DNA from: Meghimatium bilineatum
Lineage: Eukaryota; Mollusca; Gastropoda; Stylommatophora; Philomycidae
Reading direction: 5' to 3'
Length of the DNA stretch: 64,000 nucleotides
NCBI GenBank assembly: GCA_034231615.1
Contig: CM067306.1
Span: 61,149,475 to 61,213,474 of the forward strand
Part shown: piece by piece, positions 1,225-41,275 of the stretch
Numbering within the stretch: the first letter of the stretch is position 1
How the letters are laid out: every line of letters begins with the position of its first letter
Notes under the pieces: generated by a model
Database searches by the model: none
Seen by the model: only the letters and a program-made list of their open reading frames with translations
Told to the model about the DNA's origin: nothing
Translations under genes and position numbers: made by a program

Positions 1225-1415
1225 GTTCATAGTTTTCAATGGCGGTATATATGGTTATACCTCTAGCTATGCATGTATTCATTTATCTTTAAACCCATAT
1301 CACCTCTAACAGTGTAGGTGTGACAAATTCCATGCTTGAACGCATAGTCCACCAGTGAATGACTTCATTGTACTTGTGTTACTCCATATGCATTTCGTTC
1401 CTCTCAAAGAAACGG

Positions 1416-1421
1416 CACGCC
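1416..1421 (+). repeat. Left target site duplication CACGCC
   Basis: CACGCC lies immediately outside the first base (1422) of the giant inverted element and recurs immediately after its last base (14894-14899). The duplication is exactly 6 bp: the bases beyond it differ (G to the left, G-T-C-T to the right). Confidence 0.85.
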
Positions 1422-1491
1422 AGTAGTATAAGGCGCGGTTTTGGAGGGGTTTTTGCCTGCGGCAAAGAATATATAGGGATTAATCTGGAGC

Positions 1492-1797
1492 AAAGACAGA
1501 TAATAAGTATTATTTCCAAGAAGAGGGCGACTTGGCTGATCTTTTCTGTGGTTTTCATGAGGTATTTTTTTAAAAACTCGAATTTTTAAATTTTAAGCGG
1601 GCTTTATGGTTAAATTTTTTTCTATTTTACGTATTATTTATTGTAAAGACAGATAATAAGTATTATTTCCAAGAAGAGGGCGACTTGGCTGATCTATTCT
1701 GTGGTTTTCATGAGGTATTTTTTTTAAAACTCGAATTTTTAAATTTTAAGCTGGCTTTATGGTTAAATTTTTTCTATTTTACGTATTATTTATTGTT
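1492..1797 (+). repeat. Tandem duplication of the terminal segment (about 152 bp x2)
   Basis: Two copies begin at AAAGACAGATAATAAG (1492 and 1646) and end at TACGTATTATTTATTGT. They differ slightly (GCGGGC against GCTGGC; TCTTTTCTG against TCTATTCTG). The mirror copy is at 14520-14825. Near the palindrome centre only one full copy plus a truncated second copy is present on each side (about 7917-8151 and 8159-8398). Confidence 0.85.
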
Positions 1798-4247
1798 TAT
1801 TTGTTGGTATTTTCTTGTTGTTTGTTATGTCTGGTTGTTTATTTTTAGGAGTAGTTGCTACCTGGCTACGTTTTAACAGAATTAGCTGCCCTTGTGTTGT
1901 CTGAGTTATCTTGCATATGGTGTTAGAACGTGCTTAGACCTGTTTGGTGTTCACCTCTACGCGAACCTTCCACGAGCAGGGACTATTTTATCAATGGATT
2001 TTTCCCTTCCTATTGTATCACTACGCCAACTAGTTTATCTATGTTTGTATGCATATGTGTAAACAGCATGTATTTCCCTGAACTAAGTGACTACCAATGA
2101 GTGTTATTTCATGTATATATGAATGTAGGTTACTAATAAAACATACACAAACAGAAGGTGCGTGTTAACTATGTATATTTATGTGATATGTCTATGTGAA
2201 AACTACAAAAAGGTGAAGACAAACCTACTTTTTATGTAAACTATATAATGAATGACCTACTTGAATATTATGTATTACAATTTTTATCTATTTAACCATG
2301 ACGAAGCTACTAATAAAAGAGCCACAAACACAATTTTATGCTAATAATGTGACAAGTTTATTTAACACAAGGGGAAAAACTGAATAAACACCTATTTAAC
2401 ACAACTAAAAAGCTTCATGTTTTATGTATGTTTGTCTGTATATAGGTGGCTAGCATGTATTTCCATGAAATACATAACTACCAAGGATGTCTGTCACATG
2501 TAACATGTAATATACCCCAAAATGACTTTTAAACCTAAAAACAGACAGATTGACCACTAGTAATTAGAAATAATGCCTGTTATAGATAGGACCAAAAGGT
2601 TTTGAGTACAATACTTTTGAGCGGAGACGGGACGCCATTACACATGACAAGTTGCTTATACACGGCAGCAGCACAACAAAATACACACATCAAAATAGAA
2701 AAGATTAGGATTGAACACCATTCTTGTATGAGATATAACACATCGACACACACATACACTGGTTCAATTTGGTTATAGCAAGACATAACAACAATCAGCG
2801 TCAGATGTCACGCCGAATTTTTTTATTTTTATCTAAATTTTATTGTTAATTTTGTGTTTTTTTTCTGGAATTTTCGTGTTGTTTTGTTCGTTTGAGGTTT
2901 TCTAATGTTTAATGTAGTACCGCCCTATATCTCCGGTCTTTATGTGTTGTTATTGTTGTGATGTCTTGTTATATAAGTAAATTGTCATAATGCGTGACGG
3001 TCTCTACATACAAGAATTATTCTCAAAAAGCCTCTATCTCTTCTGTTTAGATGTTACATATGCCTAAACTGTGTTTATTTTTGTTGTTGCGTCTTGCTAT
3101 AACCAACTTGGTATAATTGTGTCTGTCTAATTCTGTGTTTGCTGTTTGTTGCAACTCCCTTATATAACCAAGGGAGTATGATGTGTATAAATATGCCGTC
3201 TCCTTACACAGAATGACTCTCAAAAACCAGCGGCCCCTATCTAACTTGTGCTATTTCTAATTAATAGTGGTCAACCTGTCTATGTTTTAGGTGTATATGT
3301 CATTTTATTATTCGTAGAGGGCTACATAGAGCCTTCCGAGTAGTTGGTGATTATTACGTAAACAATAACCGAGGGTTTGTTGTAGCGTAGGTGGTGGTAG
3401 AATACACAGGTCGGTTATTGCCAGGTCGGGTGTTACGTGTGATAAGCTTTCTTGGTAGTATAGATAAAAGGGAAATACACAAGGGTCACATATATACAGA
3501 CAAATGTAGATAAAACATGAAGCTTTTGAGTTGTGTTGAATAGGTTTTATTCACGTTTTCCGTTGTTTTAAATGAACATACATATAATTAGCATGCAAAT
3601 TGGATTTATGTATACTTTATTAGTAACATACATTCATATATACATAACACTCGTTGGTAGTCACATAGTTCAGAGAAATACCTGTTGTTTACATATATAC
3701 ACACAAAAACTTAGATAAGACAGGGAGATTTTGAATAGTTTAATTCATGTTATGACATGGTCGTCCACATAGTTAACAGGAAAAATTACTTGGCTAGTAG
3801 TTATACATTTCAGGGAAATATATAATTTATACATATATAGATGCAAATGTAGTACCATTTTAGTCTTCTATTCGTCGTTTTACACAAATATGCACACAGT
3901 TAACAGACAAATTATGCTAATGTGGGTTTTATGAGTAGCATACATTCATATCTACATGAAATAACACTAGTTGGTAAGCACATAGCTCAGGGAAATACAT
4001 GATGTTTACACATATACATTCAAAACATAGATAAAACATGAAGATTTTGAGTGGTGTAATTCATATTTTCGGCTTGGGATGTGTCCCATAGCAGGAAAAT
4101 ATGTTTTATTAATAACAGAATGGTATTTTAAATAGATAAAAAGGGATGACAGAGGTCGATCCGAAATAACAATGAGTATATAACAATTAACCTGGAAGAA
4201 AGCCCTAATACAGATTATTTCCGAGGAAAGGAGGGCTTGGCAGAACT
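1556..4247 (+). repeat. Inner inverted arm A (2.7 kb)
   Basis: Pairs with 5458-8151 in inverse orientation, coordinate sum about 9705-9707. The arm ends at GGCTTGGCAGAACT (4247), where similarity to the partner stops. Apart from small differences such as CACCTCTACGCG here against the CAGCTCTACGCG form in the partner, the arms look almost identical. The arm is AT-rich and composed of degenerate modules of about 130 bp. Confidence 0.85.
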
Positions 4248-4571
4248 TTTCTGGGGTTTTCTTGATGTAATTATTTAAAAAGTCGATTTTTTCATAATTT
4301 TTAGTTTGGTTCTGTTCTATTTTATTTCTATGTTATTGTTTATTTGTTGGTGTTTTCTTGTGGTTTGTTATGTCTTGTTGTTTATTTTCTTTGGAGTTGT
4401 TGTTACATGCCAAAATTTTAACAGAATTATTTTCCCTTTTGTTGTCTACGGCACCGAACCTGTTCAGAATTTCCATAAAGCAAACATCGTTTATCATGTT
4501 ATCAAGTAGGATACACCAACTTACATACCAACAGTTTATCACTAATTTCATACATCATTTGCCTATATCTG

Positions 4572-4572
<1 letters not shown>

Positions 4573-4611
<39 letters not shown>
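4573..4611. repeat. TA dinucleotide microsatellite in spacer copy 1
   Basis: About 19 TA units. The mirrored tract at 11701-11742 is 6 bp longer in register, which accounts for the shift of the symmetry sum from 16315 to 16309. Confidence 0.9.
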
Positions 4612-4820
4612 GAGAACTTTTAAGAACAATTCGTTGTGCGGAGATGGCAAAAATCGATGCGCATTAATACACAATTGGTTGTATCAGTGAGTTACTACAA
4701 GTAATAAACACAGAATTTGAAACACATAAAAAACAACAGAGGGCGGAGATGTACTTGAAGTGTATATTAAACACTAGAAAAATCACTGAACTAAACAAAC
4801 AATAATGTGTAGAGAAGTCA

Positions 4821-4858
4821 CCTTCAACAGTGAACAGAAGTTCACTGTTGTTGAAAGG
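4821..4858. repeat. Hairpin in spacer
   Basis: CAACAGTGAAC and GTTCACTGTTG form an 11-bp perfect inverted repeat around a short AGAA loop. It is mirrored at about 11450-11488. It could be a structural or origin-like element; nothing else marks its role. Confidence 0.7.
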
Positions 4859-5329
4859 TTAACATTCAACACATAAAAAAAGCAATCTATAACTTATGTT
4901 ACAGATATAACCTTAAATGTGTTAGTTTGCCCTAACATTCACCCGACAGCAGTACAAATTACGATTCAAGTCATTTACTATGACCTAATGAGAACAATAT
5001 TTTTTACTATATTAACAATACCATTGAAGTGTTTTATAGTATATCATTTACAGAACAATACGATTTATACAATTACAACATTAGAGTTATCAAATAGGTA
5101 AACAAACAAGGTATTAATGTCATATGCCCAAGAGCTTAGCAAAATACTAAATTATGTCCCTTGCATAAACAGTCGTATTCTATTCTTAATAGGTTCTCTC
5201 TTCTACTATGTCAATATTTTCTCAGTATACTCACACGAACTTATAACATTTTCTACCATACTATAACAGGTTCTAAATGTTCTCCTTAAAAGTTCTGAAA
5301 CTATTTTCTCCGTGGCCTCTTAAACTTCT

Positions 5330-5458
5330 TTGAACCATCTAAATGTTGCGCATTGGTGCGCAACAATACTTTCTTATTTGAACCATCTAAATGTTGCGCA
5401 TTGGTGCGCAACAATACTTTCTTCTTTGAACCATCTAAATGTTGCGCACCAATGCGCA
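5330..5458 (+). repeat. Three 48-bp repeats carrying a flippable hairpin
   Basis: Each unit carries TTGAACCATCTAAATG and then a 7-bp stem with 4-nt loop. Units 1 and 2 read TTGCGCA-TTGG-TGCGCAA (5346-5363, 5394-5411). Unit 3 reads TTGCGCA-CCAA-TGCGCA (5442-5458), which is the same hairpin in the opposite orientation. Unit 3 fuses directly to inner arm B. The mirror set is at 10851-10979. Confidence 0.85.
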
Positions 5459-8151
5459 GTTCTGCCAAGCCCCCCTTTCCTCGGAAATAATCTGTATTAG
5501 GGCTTTCTTCCAGGTTAATTGTTATATACTCATTGTTATTTCGGATCGACCTCTGTCATCCCTTTTTATCTATTTAAAATACCATTCTGTTATTAATAAA
5601 ACATATTTTCCTGCTATGGGACACATCCCAAGCCGAAAATATGAATTACACCACTCAAAATCTTCATGTTTTATCTATGTTTTGAATGTATATGTGTAAA
5701 CATCATGTATTTCCCTGAGCTATGTGCTTACCAACTAGTGTTATTTCATGTAGATATGAATGTATGCTACTCATAAAACCCACATTAGCATAATTTGTCT
5801 GTTAACTGTGTGCATATTTGTGTAAAACGACGAATAGAAGACTAAAATGGTACTACATTTGCATCTATATATGTATAAATTATATATTTCCCTGAAATGT
5901 ATAACTACTAGCCAAGTAATTTTTCCTGTTAACTATGTGGACGACCATGTCATAACATGAATTAAACTATTCAAAATCTCCCTGTCTTATCTAAGTTTTT
6001 GTGTGTATATATGTAAACAACAGGTATTTCCCTGAACTATGTGACTACCAACGAGTGTTATGTATATATGAATGTATGTTACTAATAAAGTATACATAAA
6101 TCCAATTTGCATGCTAATTATATGTATGTTCATTTAAAACAACGGAAAACGTGAATAAAACCTATTCAACACAACTCAAAAGCTTCATGTTTTATCTACA
6201 TTTGTCTGTATATATGTAACCCTTGTGTATTTCCCTTTTATCTATACTACCAAGAAAGCTTATCACACGTAACACCCGACCTGGCAATAACCGACCTGTG
6301 TATTCTACCACCACCTACGTTACAACAAACCCTCGGTTATTGTTTACGTAATAATCACCAACTACTCGGAAGGCTCTATGTAGCCCTCTACGAATAATAA
6401 AATGACATATACACCTAAAACATAGACAGGTTGACCACTATTAATTAGAAATAGCACAAGTTAGATAGGGGCCGCTGGTTTTTGAGAGTCATTCTGTGTA
6501 AGGAGACGACATATTTATACACATCATACTCCCTTGGTTATATAAGGGAGTTGCAACAAACAGCAAACACAGAATTAGACAGACACAATTATACCAAGTT
6601 GGTTATAGCAAGACGCAACAACAAAAATAAACACAGTTTAGGCATATGTAACATCTAAACAGAAGAGATAGAGGCTTTTTGAGAATAATTCTTGTATGTA
6701 GAGACCGTCACGCATTATGACAATTTACTTATATAACAAGACATCACAACAATAACAACAAATAAAGACCGGAGATATAGGGCGGTACTACATTAAACAT
6801 TAGAAAACCTCAAACGAACAAAACAACACGAAAACTCCAGAAAAAAAAACACAAAATTAACAATAAAATTTAGATAAAAATAAAAAAAATTCGGCGTTGC
6901 ATCTGACGATGATTGTTGTTATGTCTTGCTATAACCAAATTGAACCAGTGTATGTGTGTGTCGATGTGTTATATCTCATACAAGAATGGTGTTCAATCCT
7001 AATCTTTTCTATTTTGATGTGTGTATTTTGTTGTGCTGCTGCCTTGTATAAGCAACTTGTCATGTGTAATGGCGTCCCGTCTCCGCCCAAAAGTATTGTA
7101 CTCAAAACCTTTTGGTCCTATCTATAACAGGCATTATTTCTAATTACTAGTGGTCAATCTGTCTGTTTTTAGGTTTAAAAGTCATTTTGGGGTATATTAC
7201 ATGTTACATGTGACAGACATCCTTGGTAGTTATGTATTTCATGGAAATACATGCTAGCCACCTATATACAGACAAACATACATAAAACATGAAGCTTTTT
7301 AGTTGTGTTAAATAGGTGTTTATTCAGTTTTTCCCCTTGTGTTAAATAAACTTGTCACATTATTAGCATAAAATTGTGTTTGTGGCTCTTTTATTAGTAG
7401 CTTCGTCATGGTTAAATAGATAAAAATTGTAATACATAATATTCAAGTAGGTCATTCATTATATAGTTTACATAAAAAGTAGGTTTGTCTTCACCTTTTT
7501 GTAGTTTTCACATAGACATATCACATAAATATACATAGTTAACACGCACCTTCTGTTTGTGTATGTTTTATTAGTAACCTACATTCATATATACATGAAA
7601 TAACACTCATTGGTAGTCACTTAGTTCAGGGAAATACATGCTGTTTACACATATGCATACAAACATAGATAAACTAGTTGGCGTAGTGATACAATAGGAA
7701 GGGAAAAATCCATTGATAAAAATAGTCCCTGCTCGCGGAAGGTTCGCGTAGAGCTGAACACCAAACAGGTCTAAGCACGTTCTAACACCATATGCAAGAT
7801 AACTCAGACAACACAAGGGCAGCTAATTCTGTTAAAACGTAGCCAGGTAGCAACTACTCCTAAAAATAAACAACCAGACATAACAAACAACAAGAAAATA
7901 CCAACAAATAAACAATAAATAATACGTAAAATAGAAAAAATTTAACCATAAAGCCAGCTTAAAATTTAAAAATTCGAGTTTTTAAAAAAATACCTCATGA
8001 AAACCACAGAAAAGATCAGCCAAGTCGCCCTCTTCTTGGAAATAATACTTATTATCTGTCTTTACAATAAATAATACGTAAAATAGAAAAAATTTAACCA
8101 TAAAGCCAGCTTAAAATTTAAAAATTCGAGTTTTTAAAAAAATACCTCATG
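5458..8151 (-). repeat. Inner inverted arm B
   Basis: Inverse partner of 1556-4247. It starts at AGTTCTGCCAAGCC and ends at CCTCATG at the palindrome centre. It carries the variants AAALYKQL and SPPKS in the shared short frame (6897-7127), where arm A has AAAVYKQL and SPLKS. Those differences are used below to order events. Confidence 0.85.
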
Positions 8152-8165
8152 TGGTTTTCATGAGG
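8145..8165. repeat. Palindrome centre (snap-back junction)
   Basis: CCTCATG (8145-8151), loop TGGTTTT (8152-8158), CATGAGG (8159-8165); beyond these the stem continues for the full arm length. Relative to an outer terminus, both halves here lack roughly the last 130-290 bp, including the AGTAGTATAAGG end. Confidence 0.9.
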
Positions 8166-10851
8166 TATTTTTTTAAAAACTCGAATTTTCAAATTTTAAG
8201 CTGGCTTTATGGTTAAATTTTTTCTATTTTACGTATTATTTATTGTAAAGACAGATAATAAGTATTATTTCCAAGAAGAGGGCGACTTGGCTGATCTTTT
8301 CTGTGGTTTTCATGAGGTATTTTTTTAAAAACTCGAATTTTTAAATTTTAAGCTGGCTTTATGGTTAAATTTTTTCTATTTTACGTATTATTTATTGTTT
8401 ATTTGTTGGTATTTTCTTGTTGTTTGTTATGTCTGGTTGTTTATTTTTAGGAGTAGTTGCTACCTGGCTACGTTTTAACAGAATTAGCTGCCCTTGTGTT
8501 GTCTGAGTTATCTTGCATATGGTGTTAGAACGTGCTTAGACCTGTTTGGTGTTCAGCTCTACGCGAACCTTCCGCGAGCAGGGACTATTTTATCAATGGA
8601 TTTTTCCCTTCCTATTGTATCACTACGCCAACTAGTTTATCTATGTTTGTATGCATATGTGTAAACAGCATGTATTTCCCTGAACTAAGTGACTACCAAT
8701 GAGTGTTATTTCATGTATATATGAATGTAGGTTACTAATAAAACATACACAAACAGAAGGTGCGTGTTAACTATGTATATTTATGTGATATGTCTATGTG
8801 AAAACTACAAAAAGGTGAAGACAAACCTACTTTTTATGTAAACTATATAATGAATGACCTACTTGAATATTATGTATTACAATTTTTATCTATTTAACCA
8901 TGACGAAGCTACTAATAAAAGAGCCACAAACACAATTTTATGCTAATAATGTGACAAGTTTATTTAACACAAGGGGAAAAACTGAATAAACACCTATTTA
9001 ACACAACTAAAAAGCTTCATGTTTTATGTATGTTTGTCTGTATATAGGTGGCTAGCATGTATTTCCATGAAATACATAACTACCAAGGATGTCTGTCACA
9101 TGTAACATGTAATATACCCCAAAATGACTTTTAAACCTAAAAACAGACAGATTGACCACTAGTAATTAGAAATAATGCCTGTTATAGATAGGACCAAAAG
9201 GTTTTGAGTACAATACTTTTGGGCGGAGACGGGACGCCATTACACATGACAAGTTGCTTATACAAGGCAGCAGCACAACAAAATACACACATCAAAATAG
9301 AAAAGATTAGGATTGAACACCATTCTTGTATGAGATATAACACATCGACACACACATACACTGGTTCAATTTGGTTATAGCAAGACATAACAACAATCAT
9401 CGTCAGATGCAACGCCGAATTTTTTTTATTTTTATCTAAATTTTATTGTTAATTTTGTGTTTTTTTTTCTGGAGTTTTCGTGTTGTTTTGTTCGTTTGAG
9501 GTTTTCTAATGTTTAATGTAGTACCGCCCTATATCTCCGGTCTTTATTTGTTGTTATTGTTGTGATGTCTTGTTATATAAGTAAATTGTCATAATGCGTG
9601 ACGGTCTCTACATACAAGAATTATTCTCAAAAAGCCTCTATCTCTTCTGTTTAGATGTTACATATGCCTAAACTGTGTTTATTTTTGTTGTTGCGTCTTG
9701 CTATAACCAACTTGGTATAATTGTGTCTGTCTAATTCTGTGTTTGCTGTTTGTTGCAACTCCCTTATATAACCAAGGGAGTATGATGTGTATAAATATGT
9801 CGTCTCCTTACACAGAATGACTCTCAAAAACCAGCGGCCCCTATCTAACTTGTGCTATTTCTAATTAATAGTGGTCAACCTGTCTATGTTTTAGGTGTAT
9901 ATGTCATTTTATTATTCGTAGAGGGCTACATAGAGCCTTCCGAGTAGTTGGTGATTATTACGTAAACAATAACCGAGGGTTTGTTGTAACGTAGGTGGTG
10001 GTAGAATACACAGGTCGGTTATTGCCAGGTCGGGTGTTACGTGTGATAAGCTTTCTTGGTAGTATAGATAAAAGGGAAATACACAAGGGTTACATATATA
10101 CAGACAAATGTAGATAAAACATGAAGCTTTTGAGTTGTGTTGAATAGGTTTTATTCACGTTTTCCGTTGTTTTAAATGAACATACATATAATTAGCATGC
10201 AAATTGGATTTATGTATACTTTATTAGTAACATACATTCATATATACATAACACTCGTTGGTAGTCACATAGTTCAGGGAAATACCTGTTGTTTACATAT
10301 ATACACACAAAAACTTAGATAAGACAGGGAGATTTTGAATAGTTTAATTCATGTTATGACATGGTCGTCCACATAGTTAACAGGAAAAATTACTTGGCTA
10401 GTAGTTATACATTTCAGGGAAATATATAATTTATACATATATAGATGCAAATGTAGTACCATTTTAGTCTTCTATTCGTCGTTTTACACAAATATGCACA
10501 CAGTTAACAGACAAATTATGCTAATGTGGGTTTTATGAGTAGCATACATTCATATCTACATGAAATAACACTAGTTGGTAAGCACATAGCTCAGGGAAAT
10601 ACATGATGTTTACACATATACATTCAAAACATAGATAAAACATGAAGATTTTGAGTGGTGTAATTCATATTTTCGGCTTGGGATGTGTCCCATAGCAGGA
10701 AAATATGTTTTATTAATAACAGAATGGTATTTTAAATAGATAAAAAGGGATGACAGAGGTCGATCCGAAATAACAATGAGTATATAACAATTAACCTGGA
10801 AGAAAGCCCTAATACAGATTATTTCCGAGGAAAGGGGGGCTTGGCAGAACT
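8159..10851 (+). repeat. Inner arm B, mirrored copy
   Basis: Reverse complement of 5458-8151 across the centre. It keeps the arm B variants (CAGCTCTACGCG at about 8565; the AAALYKQL form at 9182-9412), showing it descends from arm B and not arm A. Confidence 0.85.
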
Positions 10852-11697
10852 GCGCATTGGTGCGCAACATTTAGATGGTTCAAAGAAGAAAGTATTGTTG
10901 CGCACCAATGCGCAACATTTAGATGGTTCAAATAAGAAAGTATTGTTGCGCACCAATGCGCAACATTTAGATGGTTCAAAGAAGTTTAAGAGGCCACGGA
11001 GAAAATAGTTTCAGAACTTTTAAGGAGAACATTTAGAACCTGTTATAGTATGGTAGAAAATGTTATAAGTTCGTGTGAGTATACTGAGAAAATATTGACA
11101 TAGTAGAAGAGAGAACCTATTAAGAATAGAATACGACTGTTTATGCAAGGGACATAATTTAGTATTTTGCTAAGCTCTTGGGCATATGACATTAATACCT
11201 TGTTTGTTTACCTATTTGATAACTCTAATGTTGTAATTGTATAAATCGTATTGTTCTGTAAATGATATACTATAAAACACTTCAATGGTATTGTTAATAT
11301 AGTAAAAAATATTGTTCTCATTAGGTCATAGTAAATGACTTGAATCGTAATTTGTACTGCTGTCGGGTGAATGTTAGGGCAAACTAACACATTTAAGGTT
11401 ATATCTGTAACATAAGTTATAGATTGCTTTTTTTATGTGTTGAATGTTAACCTTTCAACAACAGTGAACTTCTGTTCACTGTTGAAGGTGACTTCTCTAC
11501 ACATTATTGTTTGTTTAGTTCAGTGATTTTTCTAGTGTTTAATATACACTTCAAGTACATCTCCGCCCTCTGTTGTTTTTTATGTGTTTCAAATTCTGTG
11601 TTTATTGCTTGTAGTAACTCACTGATACAACCAATTGTGTATTAATGCGCATCGATTTTTGCCATCTCCGCACAACGAATTGTTCTTAAAAGTTCTC

Positions 11698-11743
<46 letters not shown>

Positions 11744-12061
11744 CAGATATAGGCAAATGATGTATGAAATTAGTGATAAACTGTTGGTATGTAAGTTGGT
11801 GTATCCTACTTGATAACATGATAAACGATGTTTGCTTTATGGAAATTCTGAACAGGTTCGGTGCCGTAGACAACAAAAGGGAAAATAATTCTGTTAAAAT
11901 TTTGGCATGTAACAACAACTCCAAAGAAAATAAACAACAAGACATAACAAACCACAAGAAAACACCAACAAATAAACAATAACATAGAAATAAAATAGAA
12001 CAGAACCAAACTAAAAATTATGAAAAAATCGACTTTTTAAATAATTACATCAAGAAAACCC
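10852..12061 (-). repeat. 1.2-kb spacer, mirrored copy
   Basis: Reverse complement of 4248-5457 including the three hairpin repeats (10851-10979) and a longer TA tract (11701-11742). No gene is supported. Confidence 0.8.
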
Positions 12062-14893
12062 CAGAAAAGTTCTGCCAAGCCCTCCTTTCCTCGGAAATAA
12101 TCTGTATTAGGGCTTTCTTCCAGGTTAATTGTTATATACTCATTGTTATTTCGGATCGACCTCTGTCATCCCTTTTTATCTATTTAAAATACCATTCTGT
12201 TATTAATAAAACATATTTTCCTGCTATGGGACACATCCCAAGCCGAAAATATGAATTACACCACTCAAAATCTTCATGTTTTATCTATGTTTTGAATGTA
12301 TATGTGTAAACATCATGTATTTCCCTGAGCTATGTGCTTACCAACTAGTGTTATTTCATGTAGATATGAATGTATGCTACTCATAAAACCCACATTAGCA
12401 TAATTTGTCTGTTAACTGTGTGCATATTTGTGTAAAACGACGAATAGAAGACTAAAATGGTACTACATTTGCATCTATATATGTATAAATTATATATTTC
12501 CCTGAAATGTATAACTACTAGCCAAGTAATTTTTCCTGTTAACTATGTGGACGACCATGTCATAACATGAATTAAACTATTCAAAATCTCCCTGTCTTAT
12601 CTAAGTTTTTGTGTGTATATATGTAAACAACAGGTATTTCTCTGAACTATGTGACTACCAACGAGTGTTATGTATATATGAATGTATGTTACTAATAAAG
12701 TATACATAAATCCAATTTGCATGCTAATTATATGTATGTTCATTTAAAACAACGGAAAACGTGAATAAAACCTATTCAACACAACTCAAAAGCTTCATGT
12801 TTTATCTACATTTGTTTGTATATATGTGACCCTTGTGTATTTCCCTTTTATCTATACTACCAAGAAAGCTTATCACACGTAACACCCGACCTGGCAATAA
12901 CCGACCTGTGTATTCTACCACCACCTACGCTACAACAAACCCTCGGTTATTGTTTACGTAATAATCACCAACTACTCGGAAGGCTCTATGTAGCCCTCTA
13001 CGAATAATAAAATGACATATACACCTAAAACATAGACAGGTTGACCACTATTAATTAGAAATAGCACAAGTTAGATAGGGGCCGCTGGTTTTTGAGAGTC
13101 ATTCTGTGTAAGGAGACGGCATATTTATACACATCATACTCCCTTGGTTATATAAGGGAGTTGCAACAAACAGCAAACACAGAATTAGACAGACACAATT
13201 ATACCAAGTTGGTTATAGCAAGACGCAACAACAAAAATAAACACAGTTTAGGCATATGTAACATCTAAACAGAAGAGATAGAGGCTTTTTGAGAATAATT
13301 CTTGTATGTAGAGACCGTCACGCATTATGACAATTTACTTATATAACAAGACATCACAACAATAACAACACATAAAGACCGGAGATATAGGGCGGTACTA
13401 CATTAAACATTAGAAAACCTCAAACGAACAAAACAACACGAAAACTCCAGAAAAAAAACACAAAATTAACAATAAAATTTAGATAAAAATAAAAAAATTC
13501 GGCGTGACATCTGACGCTGATTGTTGTTATGTCTTGCTATAACCAAATTGAACCAGTGTATGTGTGTGTCGATGTGTTATATCTCATACAAGAATGGTGT
13601 TCAATCCTAATCTTTTCTATTTTGATGTGTGTATTTTGTTGTGCTGCTGCCGTGTATAAGCAACTTGTCATGTGTAATGGCGTCCCGTCTCCGCTCAAAA
13701 GTATTGTACTCAAAACCTTTTGGTCCTATCTATAACAGGCATTATTTCTAATTACTAGTGGTCAATCTGTCTGTTTTTAGGTTTAAAAGTCATTTTGGGG
13801 TATATTACATGTTACATGTGACAGACATCCTTGGTAGTTATGTATTTCATGGAAATACATGCTAGCCACCTATATACAGACAAACATACATAAAACATGA
13901 AGCTTTTTAGTTGTGTTAAATAGGTGTTTATTCAGTTTTTCCCCTTGTGTTAAATAAACTTGTCACATTATTAGCATAAAATTGTGTTTGTGGCTCTTTT
14001 ATTAGTAGCTTCGTCATGGTTAAATAGATAAAAATTGTAATACATAATATTCAAGTAGGTCATTCATTATATAGTTTACATAAAAAGTAGGTTTGTCTTC
14101 ACCTTTTTGTAGTTTTCACATAGACATATCACATAAATATACATAGTTAACACGCACCTTCTGTTTGTGTATGTTTTATTAGTAACCTACATTCATATAT
14201 ACATGAAATAACACTCATTGGTAGTCACTTAGTTCAGGGAAATACATGCTGTTTACACATATGCATACAAACATAGATAAACTAGTTGGCGTAGTGATAC
14301 AATAGGAAGGGAAAAATCCATTGATAAAATAGTCCCTGCTCGTGGAAGGTTCGCGTAGAGGTGAACACCAAACAGGTCTAAGCACGTTCTAACACCATAT
14401 GCAAGATAACTCAGACAACACAAGGGCAGCTAATTCTGTTAAAACGTAGCCAGGTAGCAACTACTCCTAAAAATAAACAACCAGACATAACAAACAACAA
14501 GAAAATACCAACAAATAAACAATAAATAATACGTAAAATAGAAAAAATTTAACCATAAAGCCAGCTTAAAATTTAAAAATTCGAGTTTTAAAAAAAATAC
14601 CTCATGAAAACCACAGAAAAGATCAGCCAAGTCGCCCTCTTCTTGGAAATAATACTTATTATCTGTCTTTACAATAAATAATACGTAAAATAGAAAAAAA
14701 TTTAACCATAAAGCCAGCTTAAAATTTAAAAATTCGAGTTTTTAAAAAAATACCTCATGAAAACCACAGAAAAGATCAGCCAAGTCGCCCTCTTCTTGGA
14801 AATAATACTTATTATCTGTCTTTGCTCCAGATTAATCCCTATATATTCTTTGCCGCAGGCAAAAACCCCTCCAAAACCGCGCCTTATACTACT
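12062..14893 (-). repeat. Inner arm A and terminus, mirrored copy
   Basis: Reverse complement of 1422-4247. It carries the arm A variants (GTAGAGGTGAAC, the AAAVYKQL frame at 13529-13735) and the double terminal segment, ending CCGCGCCTTATACTACT at 14893. Confidence 0.85.
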
Positions 14894-14899
14894 CACGCC
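14894..14899 (+). repeat. Right target site duplication CACGCC
   Basis: Second copy of the 6-bp duplication, directly after CCTTATACTACT. The inferred empty site reads AACGG-CACGCC-GTCTGTCG. Confidence 0.85.
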
Positions 14900-14921
14900 G
14901 TCTGTCGAGAGTATCCCTCAT

Positions 14922-15086
14922 AGTGCATAACTCCGTAATAATAGCGGATAACTCCGTAACAATAGCGCATAACTCCGCAACAATAGCGCATAACTCCGTA
15001 ACAATAGCGCATAACTCCGTAACAATAGCGCATAACTCCATAACAATAGCGCATAACACCATAACAATAGCGCATAGCTCCCTAAC
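14922..15086. repeat. 21-bp minisatellite, about 8 copies
   Basis: Unit GCATAACTCCGTAACAATAG plus C. A 60-aa frame on the minus strand (MRYCYGV repeats) is only the translation of this array. Confidence 0.95.
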
Positions 15087-25096: not shown

Positions 25097-25713
25097 CTAG
25101 TTAGTTAGTTAGTTAGTTAGTCGTCGGATCATCATCACTGCACATATCCATAGTTGCTCCGATCTCTCCTTGAGTGTATCCGCCATCACACTTCTGCTGA
25201 CAGTACCGGTTCTATGCTGGTTGATCATCATTCTTCTGCGCCCTCCAAAATGTTCACCTCTAGCAACACCGCATTTCAATCCCTGATCTTTAATCCTAGC
25301 CATTGAAAAGGAATCATCATCCACATTAGTCTCACTCTCACGTGTTATATCTCTTAAGGAGTTCAAAACGTCAGTGCGATCCATTGCCCTATCGCCCTGT
25401 GCCACAATCGCGCACGATGCCAGTTGATCCGCTCTTTCATTGCCTCGAACGCCCACATGTCCCGGCAGGAAAATAAATGTAACCACTTTCAAGCTCGCCT
25501 TTCTCAAGGCCTCACTCCACTGTTCGCGAACGAGACCCACTTGTACCTTCTTAATCATACTCATAGAGTCACTCAAGATGCAGACCTGCGTTACCTTCTG
25601 TGTGCGTAGCCACTCAAATGCCTTGGTCACCGCCATAGTCTCCATGGTCATACTACTCGTAGTGACCGCAAAGGCACCATTTTCCTCCTTGATCGTTTTA
25701 CCTGCGCACTGAA
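25097..25713 (-). pseudogene. 5'-truncated retroelement RNase H domain with (CTAA)n tail
   Basis: On the minus strand, residues after the junction read CAGKTIKEENGAF, then SSMTMETMAV (catalytic Glu), ILSDSMSMI (Asp), FLPGHVGVRGNERADQLA (His and last Asp) and TGTVSRSVMADTL. These are the order and spacing of an RNase H domain in non-LTR retrotransposons. The first catalytic Asp (TDGS) is missing because of the truncation. The frame is open from 25732 to 25109, but its first residues (MFLDLHV) come from the flanking repeat. After the last codons the minus strand runs into CTAA repeats (25122-25096). A 20-bp duplication flanks it, as expected of target-primed reverse transcription. Not functional alone. 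Confidence 0.8.
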
Positions 25714-25767
25714 CATGCAAATCTAGGAACATGCAAATCTAGGAACATGCAAAACTAGGAACAGGCT

Positions 25768-33217: not shown

Positions 33218-33655
33218 CTATCTGTGTTCCTTCGGCGTCGAACACGGTACAGAAACCAGAGCTCTCCAGTTCGAGCGATGTGATGATGCTGTGTGTAGTT
33301 CTTGTATGTTATTGAGACTCATAGTCATACTCTCTTTGATGGTTGTTTTGCGAAGAGTCTCTCTTGGTCTTCCTCTTTCTCTTTTGCCATCTGGTACCCA
33401 TTTTAACGCTTGTAGCGACAGTCTGTTTTCATTCATTCTAAGTACATGTCCGATATACGTCCATTCTTTTCTTCTTATTGTTGTAGAAACATATTGCTGT
33501 TTGGTGTCTTCTCTTACTTGCTTGTTTGACTTGAATTCTTCCCAACGAATATTTGAGAACCTTCTAAGACATTTATTTTCAAATGAGTTCAATTTCTTAT
33601 CCAGTGTCTTTGTCATTTTCCAACTTTCGCAACCATATGTCAACATGGATATCAC
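33218..33655 (-). pseudogene. LINE carboxyl-terminal fragment (145 aa open)
   Basis: Reads SMLTYGCESWKMTKTLDKKL, then NKCLRRFSNIRWEEF, IGHVLRMNENRL and GKRERGRPRETLRKT. This is the region after the reverse transcriptase of a non-LTR element (YGCESW, CLRR, GHVLRM, GRPRETW-like motifs). The stop codon is at 33218. The 5' end breaks off inside a minisatellite made from the same sequence. No polymerase motifs remain. Confidence 0.85.
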
Positions 33656-33835
33656 GGCTGGAGGTGATCATTCCAAATGTCAACATGGATATCACGCTTG
33701 GAGGTGAACATTCCAAATGTCAACATGGATATCACACTTGGAGGTGAACATTCCAAATGTCAACATGGATATCACGCTTGGAGGTGAACATTCCAAATGT
33801 CAACATAGATATCACGGCTGGAGGTGAACATTCTT
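33636..33835. repeat. 40-bp minisatellite, about 5 copies
   Basis: Unit TGTCAACATGGATATCACGC then TTGGAGGTGAACATTCCAAA. The first unit is contiguous with the LINE frame at SMLTYGCES. Confidence 0.95.
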
Positions 33836-35499: not shown

Positions 35500-36215
35500 G
35501 GTTACAGTGCATGAACTCGCCCAGCTACACTCAAACCACAGGATATAATTATATACACAGATGGCTCCGTTAACAGAAAGACGAATAAAAGTGGTTCGGG
35601 TTTTGTTGCCTGCAGAAACACGAGAAGTTGGTTTGAGAAATCTTCAGCATATTCTACTGTCACATCGAGCATGAGGATGGAGATAGAGGGAGTTACAGCA
35701 GCACTGAGTTGGTTGATAACTGATATATCAACACACCCGGTAATACTCACAGACTCTCAAAGCATGTTGCGCAAGATAGAAAAGTGCATGATGACAAAGG
35801 AATGGTGTGATTTATTGAATAACTCAGTTGTCTAGAGCATGGATATACTCTTCTGGTCATGCTGGTCAGAGGAAACGAAAGAACTGACTTATTGGCAGGC
35901 ATTGCGGAGATTGACGGCACATTGCTGAGAAGAGATAAAACAGGCTTGACCAAGGTAGTCATAAATTCATTTCAAAATGAAGATGATGTCAATGAGGCTG
36001 AGAACGTGCACATACAGAGAATGTTAGAAATGGGAATGTCTGGAGGTGAGGGAAGGAAAAGTATTTTGTTTTGGAAAGTCCCGAAGATCACACAATCAAC
36101 ACGTGACAGGGAATCTGAGTCTACATACACTGAGATGGCTGCTAGAATGGAGAGTGAAGCACTTATGGGAGTATCCCACGTGCTGCGATACTAGTTTCTA
36201 ATCAAGAATCAAGAA
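35500..36215 (+). pseudogene. Retroelement RNase H domain and carboxyl end, frameshifted
   Basis: One frame from about 35530 reads IIIYTDGSVNRKTNKSGSGF (first Asp), VTSSMRMEIEGVTAAL (Glu) and VILTDSQSMLRKIE (Asp), then a stop after NNSVV. The third block (GHAG, then VRGNERTDLLAG with the last Asp) lies in another frame from about 35852. That frame continues to 36194. A final shift exposes HLWEYPTC, matching the Cys-rich end of the copy at 384-748. All four acidic RNase H residues can be located, but at least two frameshifts kill it. No reverse transcriptase precedes it. Confidence 0.8.
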
Positions 36216-40095: not shown

Positions 40096-40860
40096 TGTGG
40101 GAACGAGGAAGTGCTTGAGATTAATAAAAAAATTGAGAGTAAGACTTATGTATTGTTGTTTCGTCCAAAGGAGGAGCTAAACATGGATGCACCGTGTAAT
40201 AGCCAATAACACACGGCATGTATAAGAAGAAGTGACCACAACAAATAATGTTGGACCCGCGACCTCAGAAGTATACCTCTCTCTTCTTGAATGGACTCTC
40301 GTATCTTCCACCACTCTGTTTATCTCTGCCTGTTAGTCTCAAAATTAGTATCTTAACAACGCACGTGCATCAAAACAGCACCCTAACACTCCCCTTTGTC
40401 TTGTTTCTTCCAGTTCCGTTAAGCCGACGACGAAGCAGTTGGAGATCTTCCGTCTGTTCTGTGCGAATGGTTGTCGGGTTGGTTTAATGTTCAACGCTGT
40501 CAGCCTTTGTGTGTGTTGTGTGGTGCCTAAAAGGGAGGTAATTGATATTGAGAGAATACAATTGTAGCGTGGGTGGTCCCCCTTTCAATAGCAACTATTG
40601 GTTTCACGCTGGACTTCCTGGTAACATGGTTGCCATGAAACATACTTTTGGACTAATGTCAACATTGGTTTTAGAATTGGTTTCTCCAAAAAAAAAGAAA
40701 AACATTTAAATAAATCATAGCGAGAAAGGGTGAAGTGGGTGAGGAGTGTGGAGGAGGAGTGTGGAGAACTGAGGTGTAGAGAAGAGAGAAGACAATGACT
40801 GGAATGTGGAGATAGGTAAAACTAGAAAGAGAAACATATGTAGAAACTTAGAAGGAAGGA
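40096..40860. other. No recognisable gene
   Basis: Contains a 79-aa plus-strand frame (40248-40487) without a recognised domain and a G/A-rich stretch at 40715-40800. Confidence 0.4.
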
Positions 40861-40864
40861 AGAT

Positions 40865-41275
40865 ATACCAGAACCACGACCTCCACTAGTTTTTGATAGT
40901 TGCAGCCTAGTCGATAGTCTAACCCCAGCTGGTTTGTGTTCCATTCTTGCCGTTAAGCGTAGGGGTGATTGGAGCTCGAGCTTGCGTTCCAAAGCCAGAT
41001 GTGTGGCTTCAGCTGTGCTATGACCGTGTCTGTACAGGATGTCCCTGACGTTTTCTATCCATCTCTTCCGTGGTCTTCCTCTGGTTTTGTACCCTGATCT
41101 CATTTGGTTATTTGCCCGTACGGGCAACTTTTCGTGATGCATTCTCATAATGTGGCCAAACCACTTGATCTGTTTTCTCTCTCTATGTAATCTCTACAAG
41201 ATATTATACCTATTCTTTCCCTGATATATGCATTTCGCAATCTGTCAAGTCTGGTGACCCCAGCAGATTTCAGTA
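40865..41275 (-). pseudogene. LINE carboxyl-terminal fragment
   Basis: The minus strand reads KSAGVTRLDRLRNAYIRERI, then, across a frameshift near 41170, QIKWFGHIMRMHHEKLP, RGRPRKRWIENVRDI and THLALERKLELQSP. This is the same protein region as 22745-22950, better preserved. The frame from 41148 is open to 40822. Confidence 0.8.

Follow-up and report, generated by a model that had tools for sequence, protein, structure and literature searches.

How can a near-perfect palindrome of 13.5 kb come to lie in a chromosome, and was it inserted in that form or doubled afterwards? The question is raised by positions 1422-14893 of a 64,000-nucleotide stretch of DNA from the gastropod Meghimatium bilineatum (GenBank assembly GCA_034231615.1, contig CM067306.1, positions 61,149,475 to 61,213,474 of the forward strand), referred to below as the window. 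A preliminary description of this stretch had proposed that the palindrome itself was the moving unit. The analysis reported here leads, with a probability of roughly two in three, to a more specific reading, in which the palindrome would be a non-autonomous mobile element with Maverick/Polinton-type ends whose linear DNA was doubled by snap-back copying and only then integrated.

A nested palindrome bounded by a target-site duplication

When 1422-14893 is compared with itself on the minus strand by BLAST, a single alignment covers all 13,472 bp at 99.755% identity, with 19 mismatches and 14 gap positions. Such a full-length self-match is far beyond chance and bears out the near-perfect palindrome of the preliminary description, as does direct reading for its statement that the termini are exactly abutted by CACGCC on both sides (Table 1). 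Long-read data do contain palindromic read artefacts, and a chimeric or hairpin read could in principle have created the structure during assembly. An artefact of this kind would mirror the flank and give no target-site duplication (TSD), whereas here the flanks differ, the element has its 6-bp duplication, and the pattern recurs in further doubled copies at other loci; this explanation can practically be discounted.

Each half of the element is itself a near-palindrome, in which element positions 135-2826 pair with 6730-4037 at 99.22% identity (BLAST), giving 2.7-kb arms that enclose a ~1.2-kb spacer. The element therefore runs end - A - S - A' / A - S' - A' - end. Older inverted repeats are found within the arm at 72-90% identity, the best of which scores 146 bits against 40.1 bits for the best of 100 shuffles in two-base blocks, while the weaker ones score near that maximum. 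They could reflect a third, much older round of folding, which is only suggestive because direct copies of the same arm units are also present.

A family of single and doubled units

The genome examined is one assembly of 1.612 Gb in 32 contigs, and copies are named by contig (C1, C4 and so on). The exact 21-base terminus AGTAGTATAAGGCGYGGTTTT occurs 27 times in it, and its reversed control not once. These 27 ends form 11 facing pairs, one extra end at the C9 locus and four single ends (C3, C7:56.9M, C18 and C21); copies having been located by exact termini, those with altered or other ends would be missed. Exact 6-bp duplications, all different, flank ten of the 11 pairs (CACGCC, CATGGG, ATCGTC, GCTGCT, TATGTG, CATAAG, AGCATT, AACATA, CACAGC and TATGTC), and, as judged by eye, the seventh flanking base matches in none of them. 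Further copies with 6-bp duplications, for which the preliminary description had proposed to search, thus exist. Its corollary that copies should not end elsewhere holds for these ten pairs and fails for a truncated piece at C9, within a search made by termini only.

By kind, the pairs comprise four single units, six doubled forms of 11.1-13.5 kb and one rearranged locus (C9). The single units, at C1, C7:33.3M, C8:40.4M and C19, measure 6853-6877 bp, with 2.83-kb arms at 99.4-99.9% identity. Whole-length palindromes are found in the window (13,472 bp) and at C4 (13,437 bp), C8:63.3M (12,392 bp), C5 (11,120 bp) and C11 (13,101 bp). The C24 copy (C24:39064188-39077646), known from 164 read bases, spans 13,459 bp by its end positions and was judged to be doubled by its ends and centre. 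The copies in the window and at C4, C5 and C8:63.3M each consist of a single unit in doubled form, with differing points at which the unit is cut off. The inverted-repetitive halves, the mobile single units of 6.9 kb and the repeated doubling at different points had all escaped the preliminary description.

The C11 copy is a longer unit doubled: its first ~3.7 kb are shared, and the following 2.8 kb are absent from the window and the single units and partly present at C9 and C21. The single unit leaves C11 exactly after CTCTTAAACT, runs through ~130 bp of 48-bp repeats and then returns into the arm. An off-centre deletion in a C11-type palindrome may thus have produced it; C9 holds a C11-type copy that lacks one side next to its centre, which shows that such deletions do happen.

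The shorter 12-mer AGTAGTATAAGG has 123 sites, 100 of which were listed, and the listed ones were inspected except on C16 and at two C8 positions. These sites lie mostly outside the family: all eight in L001-L008 and 13 of 14 in L028-L041 are unrelated, and among 40 short pieces (L043-L082) a script flagged five, of which four were kept and L065 was judged unrelated by eye. At C18, C7:61.8M, C3 and C7:56.9M, the first kilobase is 73-89% identical to family pieces, which argues that the family is older than its near-identical members. In three of these (C18, C3 and C7:56.9M), the sequence after the terminus is a piece of arm in reverse orientation.

The termini and duplications recall those of vertebrate Mavericks, which are described as having (AGT)2//(ACT)2 ends, perfect TSDs of 6 bp and end repeats that would suit jumping-back during protein-primed replication (PMC8097293). 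The structural features of a Maverick are present here and the coding one is not. The hint at Polintons in the preliminary description was hence right for the ends and the TSDs and did not extend to Maverick genes, none of which was found by Pfam in ten left-half frames.

Recurrence of the doubled form at several loci

The 27-bp centre of the window palindrome recurs at C4, in opposite orientation and under the TSD CATAAG, and at C24 under the TSD TATGTC. Around the centre, C24 and the window are identical over 120 of 120 bp, including a C at window position 8190 that only one of the halves has. In none of the nine other elements and two partial loci checked does the 15-base motif with this C occur. 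A one-half-only base common to two loci implies that the doubled form is ancestral to both or that sequence was exchanged later; with that alternative noted, the window and C24 firmly point to one descent and to movement of the doubled form itself. The proposal that the palindrome is the moving unit thus gains its support from the other copies, under other TSDs, rather than from the duplication alone.

One could instead regard the centre common to the window, C4 and C24 as a recurrent hot spot, given that CATG beside short self-complementary bases favours refolding and that the window and C4 have only one variant exclusive to them. C4 groups with the window by this variant (4610C) and, separately, at 74% bootstrap (76% with C21 included), the variant analysis and the first of these bootstrap values covering 12 of 16 aligned rows (one orientation per single unit; C11 and C9 left out). 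Independent refolding is nevertheless very unlikely, as C24 has the one-half-only base within 120 identical bp and a further copy, at C21, combines the same breakpoint with window-private variants.

The C21 copy is ~12.75 kb long and has the TSD TATACT on both sides, its left end being altered to AGTAGTATATGG. One of its halves has all 13 window-private variants and is 5-8 substitutions away from the halves of the window element. The other half is of a diverged C11 type, joined at the same TACCTCATG/TGG breakpoint. That two lineages lie within one duplication is best accounted for by a template switch from one molecule to another ahead of integration.

A competing explanation is that a 6.9-kb unit inserted singly and was doubled later within the chromosome, through two template switches or recombination between inverted repeats, its identical ends preserving the duplications. 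Since a single unit has the same terminus on either side, switching template again in its far arm would bring back the right flank. Inverted copies have been proposed to arise by hairpin-capped and template-switch routes (PMC10766183), and a late rearrangement of such a sort is seen at C9. Against this stand the single centre at three loci with different TSDs, the one-half-only base common to two of them, dimer ends that lack the inverted flank seen at C9, and the union of two lineages inside one TSD at C21. Overall, in-place doubling is quite unlikely, and for the window and C24 it is already largely refuted.

Fold-back centres and a proposed origin

Four different centres were read, with matches of 0-3 bp and loops of 5-20 bases. 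At the fold point of the window, the uninterrupted single unit reads ATACCTCATGAAAACCACAG; in the palindrome, the 3' CA of a strand that ends in ...ACCACA lies on the TG within CATG, leaving a 7-base loop, after which the strand continues as a copy of itself. At C8:63.3M, CA lies on TG with a 5-base loop (GTAGT), and at C5, ACA lies on TGT with a 20-base loop. The apparent 41-base loop of C4 is due to a mismatch near its centre, which is that of the window. The centres of the window, C8 and C5 bear the marks of self-primed snap-back and are also compatible with template switching at short homologies. Both hallmarks of snap-back products are observed, namely variable internal fold-back points and the same terminus at both ends of the palindrome, the latter not being an independent observation since the pairs were found via the terminus.

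A foldback cut-and-paste transposon comparable to Galileo, of the P superfamily, would offer a different route, in which the arms grew by gap repair and the Maverick-like ends arose by chance. Long-armed Galileo copies with identical TSDs have indeed been described, one of 9021 bp with arms of 4.2 and 4.7 kb, but Galileo TSDs measure 7-8 bp (PMC4168063), as opposed to 6 bp in all ten pairs here. The ends here are (AGT)2//(ACT)2, and errors of replication account more easily for whole-length doubling, different centres and a copy that joins two lineages, so that a Galileo-type origin is unlikely.

Snap-back copying before integration could proceed as follows. The basic mobile unit would be the 6.9-kb near-palindrome (end, arm, spacer, arm, end), replicated at a linear extrachromosomal stage, presumably by protein priming with a Maverick as helper. 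The 3' end of such a linear replicating unit would fold onto its own strand, prime on 2-3 matching bases and copy up to the 5' end. The resulting hairpin would keep one functional terminus, and its replication would yield a double-length palindrome with that terminus at both ends, which an integrase supplied in trans could insert with a 6-bp duplication. The doubled form might then replicate and insert again as such. For the window, the empty site before insertion would read AACGG-CACGCC-GTCTGTCG.

Several observations weigh against this scheme or complicate it. The common descent of C4 and the window is likely rather than proven, for it draws on the centre, one variant and the bootstrap. All 13 window-private variants lie in both halves, as compared with 10 differences between the halves, which means that the halves must have been homogenised since if the doubling is old. 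Substitutions between a copy's own halves number 10 in the window, 5 in C4, 12 in C8:63.3M and 17 in C5, some of those at cut centres being possibly alignment effects; the right half of C8:63.3M is only 8 substitutions away from the single unit C8:40.4M, against 12 from its own left half, which simple doubling does not predict. The C11 centre has a 6-base loop, and in the sequence read, from which the uninterrupted parent is missing, no clear match for priming stands out. At C9 (C9:16219460-16233250; L013, L025-L027), a 3450-bp palindrome lies with a second, truncated palindromic piece; the pair has no TSD of its own, the outermost ends read GACGCG on both sides, and a piece of the right flank is found inverted inside (by eye), so that rearrangement after insertion also occurs. 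Finally, no polymerase gene was found near the exact ends: 19 PF03175 (DNA_pol_B_2) matches at 12 places are all more than 1.1 Mb away from all 27 of them.

Among these matches, DNA_pol_B_2 lies in open frames of 1350 aa at C24:19408539-19410569 and of 1341 aa at C22:50598798-50599526. Such long stop-free frames indicate that polymerases of this type exist in the genome, and the two loci could be Maverick-like elements with other termini.

A bolder extension, to which slightly less than even credence can be given, is that of a self-doubling lineage. Fold-back copying would alternate with central deletion, producing nested palindromes over at least two rounds (perhaps three, counting the older arm repeats), and each doubled generation would replicate and integrate. 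The family would then preserve, in heritable form, the products of snap-back replication that Maverick-type machinery carried out in a germ line.

Coding content, feature map and neighbouring sequences

Forty-nine frames of at least 60 aa overlap positions 1300-15000. A Pfam scan of the ten longer left-half frames among them yielded no match reaching the cut-off and one sub-threshold zf-C2HC match (E 0.0099). In particular, no above-cut-off match to the polymerase B, integrase or capsid genes of Mavericks/Polintons was obtained in these ten frames, and the element does not qualify as an autonomous member. In 1400-14920, none of the Rfam families attained its gathering score. In the inner 2.8 kb of the C11 unit, three frames gave nothing above the Pfam cut-off; two frames gave one weak match to an unnamed PHROG (E 0.013), and one had no homologue. 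Phage relatives were considered and rejected: 1422-4480 has no match in the 'phages' collection, and an exact 17-mer of the terminus occurs 0 times in 'viral_contigs'.

Table 1. Parts of the palindromic element, in window coordinates
Feature	Position	Strand	Remarks
Whole palindromic element	1422..14893	.	13,472 bp; inverted self-match 99.755%
Left TSD, CACGCC	1416..1421	.	Direct reading
Right TSD, CACGCC	14894..14899	.	Direct reading
Left terminus AGTAGTATAAGG, (AGT)2 end motif	1422..1433	+	Direct reading
Right terminus CCTTATACTACT, (ACT)2 end motif	14882..14893	-	Direct reading
Subterminal 153-bp tandem repeat, 2 copies	1492..1796	+	
Subterminal 153-bp tandem repeat, 2 copies, mirror image	14519..14823	-	
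Arm A, first half	1556..4247	+	Inverted match to 8151-5458, 99.22%
Older inverted repeat within arm A, left member	2034..2184	+	81.8% to 4035-3882
Older inverted repeat within arm A, right member	3882..4035	-	
Spacer S, first half	4248..5457	+	
Filler where spacer and arm meet, a 48-bp tandem repeat; the C11 unit lacks it at the corresponding place	5325..5448	+	
Arm A', first half	5458..8151	-	
Centre of the large palindrome, ATACCTCATG-TGGTTTT-CATGAGGTAT, 7-base loop at 8152-8158	8142..8168	.	Same 27 bp at C4 and C24
Arm A, second half	8150..10851	+	
Half-specific base C, common only to the window and C24 among copies checked	8190..8190	+	
Spacer S, second half, inverted	10852..12067	-	
Arm A', second half	12068..14768	-	

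The remainder of the window (14900-64000) is very rich in minisatellite arrays; the window as a whole has 106 tandem-repeat rows, counting those that overlap. Its frames at 25112-25738, 33221-33667, 35515-35832 and 40825-41193 resemble RNase H or reverse transcriptase and are presumably retrotransposon remnants. Elsewhere in the assembly and outside the family, two outward-facing copies of AGTAGTATAAGGATAT with mirrored neighbours lie ~4 kb apart (L001 and L002; C1:16822689 and 16826826), and a direct repeat starting AGTAGTATAAGGATGGCAG has its members 4.3 kb apart (L024; C22:3172390 and 3176709). At C16:49093978-49095622, at least 13 copies of the 12-mer terminus are clustered, presumably as a tandem array. 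C32 (L022, L023), a contig of 19,471 bp, contains a long tandem repeat, and no mitochondrial frame was recognised in its first 18,000 bases.

Significance and comparison with known systems

In one study of vertebrate Mavericks, protein-primed replication is expected from their genes and end repeats (PMC8097293). If the proposed origin is correct, chromosomally fixed snap-back products, with legible centres and a single terminus on both sides, would attest physically to replication that is linear, starts at the ends and takes place outside the chromosome. The family suggests that a mobile DNA is able to fold over, produce its own mirror image and keep spreading, and it shows that a near-perfect palindrome of 13.5 kb can be inherited and inserted repeatedly. 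If transcribed, it would give a long hairpin RNA, a possible trigger for silencing its relatives.

The inverted amplification known as ODIRA involves segments of the host chromosome and is not known to show a terminal motif or a TSD. It resembles the present case in that hairpin-capped extrachromosomal DNA yields inverted copies (PMC10766183). Galileo shares with the family its mobility, very long inverted repeats and identical TSDs, and one Galileo copy lacks the transposase segment; it belongs to the P superfamily, has 7-8-bp TSDs and is neither nested nor doubled in the portion of the source at hand (PMC4168063).

The family agrees with the Maverick/Polinton group in its (AGT)2//(ACT)2 ends, here AGTAGT...ACTACT, its exact 6-bp TSDs and its inverted terminal repeats. 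Unlike vertebrate Mavericks, which measure ~17 kb (PMC8097293), the elements described here have no recognisable genes, measure 6.9 or 11-13.5 kb and form a nested whole-element palindrome. Among the matches listed for a literature search on Polintons and palindromes, no title dealt with palindromic Polintons, and a search for polinton with 'defective interfering' returned nothing related. EMALE virophage insertions provide a precedent for shortened Maverick relatives that still have inverted termini: truncated copies retain termini 'which must have regenerated', and no palindromic doubling of EMALEs is described in the available part of the text (PMC8547959).

By analogy, the element would appear to work like a snap-back defective genome. 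The snap-back genomes of adeno-associated virus (AAV) keep one terminus, are self-complementary in symmetric or asymmetric form and replicate to a dimer with helper functions (PMC8235507). Whereas those of AAV occur in virus particles and depend on another replication system (PMC8235507), the doubled units of M. bilineatum are inherited chromosomal insertions that seem to have moved again.

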